From positions 1 to 43,473 of the forward strand of contig JAUWZV010000005.1 in NCBI GenBank assembly GCA_030615105.1: a DNA stretch of 43,473 bases. Direction: 5' to 3'. How positions within the stretch are numbered: position 1 is the first letter of the stretch; every line of letters begins with the position of its first letter. This stretch comes from Desulfobacteraceae bacterium. GTDB lineage: Bacteria; Desulfobacterota; DSM-4660; Desulfatiglandales; B25-G16. The notes under the pieces are model-generated. The model was not told the DNA's origin, did not search any database, and saw nothing but the letters and a program-made list of their open reading frames with translations. Of the stretch, positions 3,367 to 40,384 are shown in pieces. The translations under genes were made by a program, and so were the position numbers.

Positions 3367-3610
3367 AAGGCCTTAATCTAATCCAATTAAATATAATAAA
3401 GTCTAATAAAAAACTTGGCAAGGATTTAAAATTTTACAAGATTCCAATATTCTTCCATGCTACTAATATCTCAAATTGGCTTTACAAGGAAGAGATAATT
3501 ATGTTAAGAAATTTGTAACTATTCAGCCACCAAGGCACAAAGACTCAAAGACCTGCCCGACGGACGGCAGGCGGGGAAGATGAATATAAATTGAATAACG
3601 GAGTTTTCAT

Positions 3611-3635
3611 ATTAATGAGCCTAAGGCTCATTAAT
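3611..3635. repeat. 25-bp perfect palindrome ATTAATGAGCC-TAA-GGCTCATTAAT
   Basis: perfect 11-bp arms. Confidence 0.9.
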
Positions 3636-3697
3636 TTCAATGTGCCACGCATTTAAAAAGGCTATTATAAAGAATAATTCTATAATCTTGGTGTCTG

Positions 3698-3730
3698 CCC
3701 GCCCGCCTCGCCTTAGGCGAGGCGGGCGGG
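3698..3730. repeat. GC-rich palindrome CCCGCCCGCCTCGCC-TTA-GGCGAGGCGGGCGGG
   Basis: perfect 15-bp arms. Confidence 0.95.
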
Positions 3731-3776
3731 TCTTGGTGCCTTTGTGGCAAGATACCTGAGTAGTTATAACAGGACA

Positions 3777-13340: not shown

Positions 13341-13385
13341 AAAGAGGAAAGAGGGCGGAAGAAAAATGGCCGGGCTTTCTATTTG

Positions 13386-13682
13386 GATATTATGGTGGCA
13401 AACAGTCCACCAAGGGAGAGGATAATAGTCACCCACATTATAATAATAAGGTTATATAATTGACATTATTTCGCTCCTTACCTCTTTTCTGAGCCCTTCC
13501 TGCCCCTGGATAAACTCTTTTCTCAGTACTTCCTTGCCCCTCTCTCAAGCTTATCTGTTCGGTCTCGATGTGATTTAGCCTTTCTGCCACCTGCCCGCCA
13601 TCGCGAGCTCAGGCGAGGCGGGCGGGTCTGCTCCAGGATCCCCTCAACCTTTGCCATCCTGTCTTCCAGGTTCGTTTGTGGC
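13386..13682 (-). pseudogene. degraded paralog of the small coiled-coil membrane protein at 18987-19220, disrupted by a 37-bp palindrome
   Basis: nucleotide-level match to 18987-19220 along its length, with extra palindrome at 13590-13626 and an additional internal insertion. Confidence 0.9.
13590..13626. repeat. 37-bp palindromic insertion CCTGCCCGCCATCGCGAGCTCAGGCGAGGCGGGCGGG
   Basis: absent from the intact paralog (CTGCCA|TCTGCTCC). Confidence 0.93.
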
Positions 13683-13699
13683 ATGTAAACCTCTTCTTC

Positions 13700-18986: not shown

Positions 18987-19220
18987 CTATTTGAATACTA
19001 TGGTGGCAAATAGTCCACCAAAGGAGAAAATTATTGTCACCCACATTATGATAATAAGGTTATATAATGACCTTATTTCGCTCCTTACCTGTTTTCTCAG
19101 CCCTTCCTGTCCCTCTCTCAAGCTTATCTGTTCGGTCTCTATGTGATTCAGCCTTTCTGCCATCTGCTCCAGGATCCCCTCAACCTTTGCCATTCTCTCT
19201 TCCGGGTTCGTCTGTGGCAT
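18987..19220 (-). CDS. small coiled-coil/single-TM protein
   Basis: MPQTNPEERMAKVEGILEQMAERLNHIETEQISLREGQEGLRKQVRSEIRSLYNLIIIMWVTIIFSFGGLFATIVFK; RBS GGAGG; intact paralog of 13386-13682. Confidence 0.75.
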   Translation of the reverse strand: MPQTNPEERMAKVEGILEQMAERLNHIETEQISLREGQEGLRKQVRSEIRSLYNLIIIMWVTIIFSFGGLFATIVFK

Positions 19221-20855: not shown

Positions 20856-20871
20856 AGCAATTATCATGCCA
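20856..20871 (-). promoter_or_regulatory. sigma-54 (-24/-12) promoter TGGCATG-ATAA-TTGCT upstream of pseudopilin
   Basis: matches YTGGCACGN4TTGCW except C to T at one position; GG/GC spacing correct; ~50 bp upstream of the start at 20807. Confidence 0.75.
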
Positions 20872-22646: not shown

Positions 22647-22689
22647 CTCTACTCCTGTATCATCCAGGTTCACCTTGCTAGTCATCTTT

Positions 22690-22755
22690 GTCATTCCCGC
22701 CCCTGCTTCCGCAGGGGTAAACTTGTCCCCGCGAAAGCGGGGAGCGGGAATCCAG
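22690..22755. repeat. three-stem palindromic element
   Basis: outer GTCATTCCCGC..GCGGGAATCCAG; inner CCCCTGCTTCCGCAGGGG and CCCCGCGAAAGCGGGG joined by TAAACTTGT. Confidence 0.85.
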
Positions 22756-22997
22756 TGGATAAACCTCAATTTATTGACAAGTTACTAATTGACATGAAAT
22801 AAGTCTTATTTTTCGATTCGCCGGGTTTAAAACCTTCGCCTTTCAGACGAATAGCTTTAGCTGAATTTTTAATCTAGGAATTAAACACTTTGTTCGTCAT
22901 TCCGTAATTTCTCAATAATTACAGGTATGTACATTATGTGCCACATCTACTGGATACCCGCTTGCGCGGGTATGACAGGAGGGCGCTCTGGATTTGT

Positions 22998-23220
22998 CAT
23001 TCCCGCGAAACTTGTCCTCGACTCCGATCGGGGAGTGGGAATCCAGTATTCATCTATTTAACTACACAGTCCAAAGTTCTGTCATTCCTGCGGAAGCAGG
23101 AATCCATAACCCCTTGATTTTCCTGGATACCCGCTTGCGCGGGTATGACAGGGGGCAGCTCTGGATTTGTCATTCCCGCGGGACTTGTGCTCCACTCCGA
23201 TCGGGGAGCAGGAATCCAGT
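22998..23220. repeat. cluster of dRS3-like palindromes
   Basis: GTCATTCCCGCGAAACTTGTCCTCGACTCCGATCGGGGAGTGGGAATCCAG; GTCATTCCTGCGGAAGCAGGAATCCA; GGATACCCGCTTGCGCGGGTATGACAG; GTCATTCCCGCGGGACTTG..GAGCAGGAATCCAG. Confidence 0.85.
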
Positions 23221-23222
23221 GT

Positions 23223-23510
23223 TCATATCAGGTCTTTGTATAAGTCTTTCCATTCAGGGTTAAATTTCTCAATCAGTTCTATTTTCCATTGCCTTTTCCA
23301 TTTTTTCATCCTTTTTTCTCTCTCAATGGCACTGTAACTATCATTTGTCTGTTCATAATATACCAATCTATCAACGCCATATTCCTTTGTGAATCCTTCT
23401 ACTAATCCATCCTTATGTTCATATACCCTTTTGACAAGGTCGTTGGTAACACCAATGTATAACGTACCGTTTCTTTTGCTTGCCAGTATATAGACATAAT
23501 AATTCTTCAT
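23223..23510 (-). CDS. GIY-YIG nuclease family protein (COG2827-like)
   Basis: YYVYILASKRNGTLYIGVTNDLVKRVYEHK...YYEQTNDSYSAIEREKRMKKWKRQWKIELI. Confidence 0.93.
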   Translation of the reverse strand: MKNYYVYILASKRNGTLYIGVTNDLVKRVYEHKDGLVEGFTKEYGVDRLVYYEQTNDSYSAIEREKRMKKWKRQWKIELIEKFNPEWKDLYKDLI

Positions 23511-23535
23511 TTTTGATATCAAATAGGATTGTGGT

Positions 23536-23601
23536 CTGGATTCCTGCTCCCCGCTTTCGCGGGGACAAGTTTACCCCTGCGGAAGCAGGGGCAGGAATGA
23601 C
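23536..23601. repeat. three-stem palindromic element (inverted relative to 22690-22755)
   Basis: CTGGATTCCTGCTCCCCGCTTTCGCGGGGACAAGTTTACCCCTGCGGAAGCAGGGGCAGGAATGAC. Confidence 0.85.
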
Positions 23602-23697
23602 AACTTGCACTTGTGGTCTGGATTCCTGCTCCCTGCTTTCGCAGGAATGACAAACTAATCTATCATTAACCATTTGACCATTTGACCACTTGACTAT

Positions 23698-27841: not shown

Positions 27842-28160
27842 TGTAATACTTCAGCCACAAAGCCCGCCCTGGCGCGACATCCTTGCCTATATTACAATCG
27901 CTGTAATATTTCTCGAGCTTAAGCAACATAGCCTAAGCATTACAAGCCAGGTCTGGGCCAGGGACACTAAGACCCGCCCGCCTCGCCTAAGGCGAAGCCG
28001 ATGGCAGGCAGGCACCAAGATTATAAACTTTCTAAAACAAACCTGGCCCTAATATCCCGCATATACAATTTTTTTCGCAATGGATTCTTCTCTTTTTGTT
28101 AAAGGTCTAAAATTCATATCCTTTCTTCGTGCCTTCGTGCCTTGGTGGCTGAACTGTTAC
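27842..28160. repeat. MITE-like element between mshM-like and mshL-like genes, containing an inserted palindrome
   Basis: ends GTAATACTTCAGCCACAAAG and (reverse-complement) GTAACAGTTCAGCCACCAAGGCACGAAG; palindrome at 27973-28012. Confidence 0.6.
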
Positions 28161-37842: not shown

Positions 37843-38094
37843 GTAACTAATCAGTTTCAGGTTCAAGGTTCAAAGTTCAGGGTTAGCTACTTTGCGCTCT
37901 TGATACCCACCTGCCAGATGGCGGGCAGGTCTGGACTTCCGTGCAAGACCGCTTGGCGTATCTCAAGAACCGGATGAACTCCGCATTCGTCTCGGAATCG
38001 AAACCTTCGGCAATATATCGCTTTTTAACCTTGAACCCCGCCTGCCAGATGGCGGGCAGGCGTGAACCTTAGAACTTTGAACCTGAGTAGTTAC
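37843..38094. repeat. MITE-like element with TIR GTAACTANTCAG..GTTCAA
   Basis: left GTAACTAATCAGTTTCAGGTTCAAGGTTCAAAG, right GAACTTTGAACCTGAGTAGTTAC; internal CCTGCCAGATGGCGGGCAGG palindromes at 37910 and 38041. Confidence 0.65.
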
Positions 38095-38158: not shown

Positions 38159-38235
<77 letters not shown>

Positions 38236-38263
38236 TATTAATCTCATCCTGGTGAACCATCTT

Positions 38264-38524
38264 ATGGTCACTCTATATGTACTTAAGGGTAAAAGCGGGA
38301 AGAGATATGTAGGCATGACAAATGACCTTGCTCTACGTCTGCGTGAACACCGTTCCAAGAGATCTAAAGGCGGACAATTAATAGACGATTTTATTGTGCT
38401 CCATTCAGAAGAATTCCCTGATTATAAAACAGCCAGAGGGCGGGAGATATTTCTAAAATCTGGACAAGGACGCAAATGGCTGGATGAATTTGAGGTACGC
38501 TCGGAGTCCGCCAAAGGCGGATAA
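38264..38524 (+). CDS. GIY-YIG nuclease family protein
   Basis: TLYVLKGKSGKRYVGMTNDLALRLREH..ARGREIFLKSGQGRKWLDEFE; start set to ATG at 38264. Confidence 0.92.
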   Translation: MVTLYVLKGKSGKRYVGMTNDLALRLREHRSKRSKGGQLIDDFIVLHSEEFPDYKTARGREIFLKSGQGRKWLDEFEVRSESAKGG

Positions 38525-40014: not shown

Positions 40015-40061
40015 TTTTAACTCCTTTCAAGATTTAGGTGTTTTGGTTCCTTAAACAATTT

Positions 40062-40099
40062 AATAAGCCTAAGGCTTATTAATAAGCCTTAGGCTTATT
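40062..40099. repeat. two abutting palindromes AATAAGCC-TAA-GGCTTATT and AATAAGCC-TTA-GGCTTATT
   Basis: perfect 8-bp arms, tandem. Confidence 0.95.
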
Positions 40100-40384
40100 A
40101 ATTAAAGGTTTATCTCTGAGTCTTATTACTTTGCTAATATCAAGGGACTCAAAAATAGGGTATATACTGATCCTATCTCCCTCGCCAATAATGTGGTCAA
40201 AAGGAACTGATTTACTATTGACAAGAACAAGATCAACCTCCTCAGAAGGCACTCCCAGAGAGCAAATTGCCTCTTTGATAGTAGTTGGAACTTTTAGGGA
40301 TAGGCTGAATGTTATTTTTCTTTTTTTTTCAGGCAGATAATCATTCAGCTCTTCATAAAGGCGGAAATATGCTATATAGCTCAT
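40079..40384 (-). CDS. MoaD/ThiS-like (Ub-Mut7C) protein, apparently truncated before the Mut7-C RNase domain
   Basis: LVLVNSKSVPFDHIIGEGDRISIYPIFESLDISKVIRLRDKPL; C-terminal INKPKAY encoded by palindrome. Confidence 0.75.
   Translation of the reverse strand: MSYIAYFRLYEELNDYLPEKKRKITFSLSLKVPTTIKEAICSLGVPSEEVDLVLVNSKSVPFDHIIGEGDRISIYPIFESLDISKVIRLRDKPLINKPKAY

Follow-up and report, generated by a model that had tools for sequence, protein, structure and literature searches.

The window analysed here, a stretch of 43,473 nucleotides from the unannotated draft contigs of a MAG, contains two copies of a small gene on the minus strand. One of them (18990–19220) is intact and encodes a small protein of 77 amino acids, and the other one (13382–13684) is an interrupted and frameshifted copy that carries a 37-nt palindromic insert at 13590–13626 (plus strand, CCTG...GGG orientation) with the sequence CCTGCCCGCCATCGCGAGCTCAGGCGAGGCGGGCGGG. 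A preliminary description of the window had given the letters and coordinates of this palindrome correctly, and its claim of an exact insertion also holds: the flanks of the insert, GCCTTTCTGCCA and TCTGCTCCAGGATCC, are those of the paralog (18987–19220), where GCCA is joined directly to TCTG at the empty site, and the insert has one possible placement only, without sliding and without target duplication. The frameshift had been attributed to the insert, but this is only part of the explanation, as other indels with respect to the paralog leave the frame broken even when the insert is removed. The interrupted copy is therefore a pseudogene, and for this reason the pair of paralogs is not the direct proof of mobility that it was taken to be, as two paralogs alone, one of them decayed, would also fit a loss. 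Among the 21 genomes searched both copies are present in this genome only, with no homolog of the 77-amino acid gene in the 20 relatives, and the polarity at this site rests on the membership of the insert in a dispersed family and on the intact frame of the paralog; the proof of mobility comes from other empty and filled pairs. As single-stranded DNA, the 37-mer is predicted to fold into a 14-bp hairpin (−15.4 kcal/mol, z −3.5), the opposite strand also folds (−14.0 kcal/mol), and 0 matches to it with up to 3 mismatches are expected from shuffled windows.

The related units that had been reported near 3698, 27973, 37910 and 38039 are all present in the window, at 3698–3730 on the plus strand and at 27973–28012, 37906–37929 and 38037–38060 on the minus strand. 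Upstream of tpiA there is a 24-nt unit within a repeat (3552–3575, plus strand) followed by the 33-nt unit of 3698–3730 (3694–3730 including TCTG), and G001, a genome of the same genus, has this repeat in front of tpiA as well but neither of the two units; the 33-nt unit is also missing in a paralogous repeat on contig C58. The sequence TCTTGGTG flanks the filled site at 3698 on both sides and is single in G001, but it is already found twice in the empty C58 repeat, so that its doubling at 3698 need not be a target duplication. The 40-nt unit at 27973–28012 is located between GGTG and TCTTAG in a host repeat of the same kind as the one upstream of tpiA, for which empty paralogous repeats exist, and the remaining two units, both of 24 nt, lie upstream of a GIY-YIG gene. 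The window also contains other repeats. At 3515–3760 lies a repeat of about 200 bp that carries inverted repeats (GCCACCAAGGCACAAAGA and TCTTGGTGCCTTTGTGGC) at its two ends. It is dispersed, with numerous copies throughout the family, and serves as a host of units. Another GIY-YIG gene (23223–23522) is flanked, at 22688–23603, by copies of a TGTCATTCCCGC...CCCCTGC repeat in inverted orientation, and this repeat has more copies at 20865 and 26337. A different palindrome family, TTAATRAGCCTWAGGCTYATTAAT, is found at 3612–3635 and 40060–40102, single and as an abutting pair.

A genome-wide count, in line with the catalogue that the preliminary description had called for, revealed a dispersed family. 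The family pattern CCYGCCNGCCN{2,26}GGCNGGCRGG occurs at 106 places in this 2.46-Mb draft genome, compared with 0 for the reversed pattern used as a control, and the units are 24–44 nt long. The same pattern was found at 143 places in the same-genus genome and at 0–72 in other members of the family, while other families of the order have mostly none or few places (31 in two genomes of one family), and the same loop variants recur, identical, across different genera. A search of GTDB genomes gave at least 113 stretches and, among the matches listed, most belong to Desulfobacterota MAGs and a few are labelled B38, PVC or Aminicenantes. From this occurrence of the units, the present genome is taken to be one of the Desulfobacterota too. 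The possibility that the palindrome is an assembly artefact of this bin can be discarded, as the same units are present in many other assemblies including one finished chromosome of 5.09 Mb with 24 copies; this chromosome was examined for a replication-strand bias of the units, and its GC skew is weak. Carriage by phages or plasmids was considered and rejected, with 10 unit stretches in 2.9 million viral contigs and none in the plasmid sequences searched. The unit has no match in Rfam, and nothing relevant to its sequence was found among open-access papers.

Many further sites are available in both states. In the loop of GTAG-tagged REPs, whose empty form is GTAGGGGTTCGATTTATCGAACCC, a 24-mer is inserted exactly between GTAGGGGTTCGA and TTTATCGAAYCC (right flank also given as TTTATCGAACCC), and at a second site in this REP type units in either orientation lie between GTAGGGGTTCGATTTA and TCGAAYCC. 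Within this genome, a 39-mer between AAGGTCGGG and TATAAAACCC has the empty counterpart AAGGTCGGGTATAAAACCC, and a 24-mer between GCGAAAA and TCTGCGTCC has the empty counterpart GCGAAAATCTGCGTCC. Units are also nested within units (contigs C54, 6780–6820; C139, 5186–5287; and C70, 1706–1753), giving nested palindromes. The comparison with empty sites in a relative, which had been proposed as a check, was made with G001: besides the two units upstream of tpiA, it lacks two units of contig C105 at the syntenic places, there amid larger intergenic differences. The mobility of the units is well supported and, as had been stated, they are mobile palindromes too small to encode their own mobility, with exact insertions and related copies elsewhere.

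The insertion boundaries and the target preference, whose definition had also been suggested, were derived from the 103 independent sites that were left after related flanks had been removed. The base preceding the unit is R at 89 of them and the base following it is Y at 80, and positions +2 to +4 match CTG in full at 12 sites (1.8 expected) and at no base in 17 (45 expected), with the composition returning to background by +5. The junction consensus is thus sharp, R^YCTG, and on the opposite strand this means that insertion follows CAGR; read on this same strand, the last bases of the unit itself are CAGG. According to the empty sites, TCTG is part of the target and not of the unit. The target motif is degenerate, and hairpin tips constitute a minority of the sites: a general targeting of hairpin loops was rejected, as the effect does not reach significance when every site is included (Wilcoxon p 0.32), although the subset of strong hairpins (≥7 bp) is enriched, with 9 of the 103 sites, whereas 60 shuffles gave 1.4 on average and never more than 5. 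In other genomes, units were observed at strong hairpin tips (loci L152, L136, L160, and L186), some of them followed by T-runs resembling transcription terminators.

The hairpin formed by the unit is nearly perfect. A single mispair near its foot is conserved: the unit ends read CCT...GGG, so that one strand has a G.T there and the other strand an A.C, and this makes the two strands asymmetric. Perfect pairing is one change away, and the mispair is kept in 79 of the 91 units of our flank catalogue, which covers 254 kb of DNA and part of all copies (about 84 of 91 if five units listed in the opposite orientation are re-oriented, a step that is interpretive). Units are inherited as wholes: truncated ones are rare and the arms occur almost solely within complete units (3′ arm, 45 in units and 0 orphans; 5′ arm, 66 and 2). 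Furthermore, 67 of the 91 have no neighbor within 200 bp.

A co-occurring enzyme had been suggested as well (RAYT or GIY-YIG among others), but neither RAYT/Y1_Tnp nor GIY-YIG genes are generally linked to the units, and no cognate enzyme was found among them. The Y1_Tnp loci of eight unit-bearing genomes were scanned, and units lie close to few of them; 30 such loci of relatives contained 4 units in 84 kb, which is about the background density, and the majority of genomes that lack units have Y1_Tnp genes too. No clade of the Y1_Tnp protein tree matched the distribution of the units, occurring in every unit-bearing genome and in none of the rest, and RAYT was therefore discarded as a linked mobiliser. 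One small clade is confined to unit-bearing genomes, in three of the eight, and there is a unit within 1.5 kb of several of its members, a proximity that we tentatively put down to their repeat-rich surroundings. Those RAYT loci that were inspected in detail are accompanied by REPs of their own, which differ from the units. For example, a RAYT of the same-genus genome (locus L125, 1266–2115) has a unit 15 bp downstream and many GTAGCGCAGGGC REPs of its own, with GTAGCGCAGGGCTTTAGCCCTGC copies on both sides of the gene and at least one inside its reading frame. GIY-YIG was rejected as a mobiliser because only one of ten genes, that at 38165–38524 of the window, has units close to it (within 500 bp).

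Could the units be immobile and every copy have been carried by the duplication of larger host repeats such as MITE-like elements or REPs? Several copies do share their host context, eight of them having GGTCGGG on the left and TATAAAACCC on the right, and part of the copy number is due to hitch-hiking within larger host repeats. However, as an explanation of every copy this is highly improbable, since it is contradicted by the exact empty and filled pairs in unrelated hosts; the units occupy 103 flank-independent sites whose boundaries are sharp, these hosts also occur as empty copies, and one REP type is filled at two sites and in both orientations. Template switching by microhomology would require no enzyme at all: a nascent strand ending in CAG would jump to a hairpin copy, copy it and return via CAG. 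This would yield the product observed and likewise leave no target duplication, as CAGG at the unit end agrees with the CAGR of the target, but the ends should then be ragged, whereas truncated units are almost absent and the boundaries are exact even where no CTG/CAG match exists (the 17 of 103 sites with none of the three bases). We therefore regard template switching as unlikely.

A further candidate mover is the cell's own RAYT (TnpA-REP), which would treat the units as an atypical, tagless class of REPs. RAYTs and GTAG REPs are present in this genome, units are found inside the loops of GTAG REPs, and the cleavage sites of TnpA-REP are CT or CA in the vicinity of hairpins, with some of these enzymes tolerating changes in the tag (PMC8266576). 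In spite of this, the GTAG/CGTC tag is absent at the foot of the unit, the closely examined RAYT loci hold other REPs and the Y1_Tnp loci of relatives have no clear unit enrichment, so that we consider the participation of a RAYT doubtful, if conceivable. Another tentative possibility is that the untagged single hairpin is moved by a dedicated, hitherto unrecognised CAGR-specific nuclease distinct from RAYTs and spread across Desulfobacterota and beyond, in which case few self-contained mobile DNAs of bacteria would be smaller than these units.

Our proposal is that the units are mobile elements of one family, non-autonomous and made of a single hairpin of 24–44 nt, which could be moved by single-strand cut-and-join, an idea for which we consider the case evenly balanced. 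The mover is probably a HuH-type single-strand nuclease acting in trans, an enzyme class that we infer because this mode of cut-and-join, which is of the HuH/Y1 type as in IS200/IS605 and TnpA-REP, is the most economical one given the exact insertion without duplication, the target shared with the unit end, the strand-marking mispairs and the whole-unit inheritance. The unit strand would read 5′-CAGR^CCCGCC...GGCGGGCAGG^Y-3′, with insertion directly 3′ of a CAGR-like site and neither duplication nor loss of the target; on this strand the conserved mispair is the G.T. The enzyme would read the folded hairpin on one strand, presumably this one, and cut 3′ of CAGR at both unit ends; the excised piece would then be joined behind another CAGR, occasionally at the tip of a target hairpin, and copies may be gained during replication.

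Elements of the IS200/IS605 family insert 3′ of a short target without target duplication, and they have hairpin ends and strand asymmetry. The units share all of this, as they also insert 3′ of a short motif, do not duplicate it, and form a hairpin with asymmetric strands; unlike these elements, they have no internal transposase gene and the whole element is one hairpin of 24–44 nt. They are also different from MITEs, which duplicate their target and share terminal inverted repeats with a DDE parent: insertion of the units is exact and without duplication, and no parent element was seen. The mobile GC clusters of yeast mitochondria are GC-rich palindromes of 30–40 nt that merge and nest and whose mechanism is unknown (PMC4478555). 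The units resemble them in being short, GC-rich, mobile and nested, but the AG or ACT direct repeats that flank the clusters are not found at the units (PMC4478555).

The closest likeness is with REPs, the GTAG- and CGTC-tagged palindromes associated with RAYT/TnpA-REP (Di Nocera 2013, PMC3733652; Corneloup 2021, PMC8266576). Like REPs, which are high-copy palindromes of 20–40 nt without coding capacity, some of them inserted in other palindromes, the units are dispersed at high copy number (106 places, 24–44 nt), and they have a stem imperfection such as some REP classes need for recognition (PMC3733652, PMC8266576). However, the units are mostly solitary and visibly inserted one by one; over the 103 independent sites the foot of the palindrome has no GTAG/CGTC tag and is flanked by R and YCTG, and at the Y1_Tnp loci scanned in the eight unit-bearing genomes copies do not generally flank a RAYT gene. 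The units thus behave like REPs or minimal IS200/IS605 derivatives, yet lack two defining features of REPs, the tag and the linked RAYT. In the case of REPINs, which are also short hairpin-forming mobile DNA without any gene, the mobile entity is an inverted pair of REPs and single copies are regarded as defunct (Bertels and Rainey 2011, PMC3116915), whereas here the inserting entity is a single hairpin, as most units are solitary, not inverted doublets, and the empty and filled pairs differ by one unit. How REP-like palindromes spread remains to be elucidated (PMC8266576). With more than 100 copies whose ends are exactly defined, with empty sites for comparison both here and in another genome of the genus, and with a derived target motif and a prediction of the strand that is active, this question becomes directly testable, and the units provide a natural test set for the spread of sequences far too small to encode anything. 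The best reading of the units is that of a tagless REP-like single-hairpin element, and they indicate that single hairpins, defunct in the REPIN model, can insert alone.
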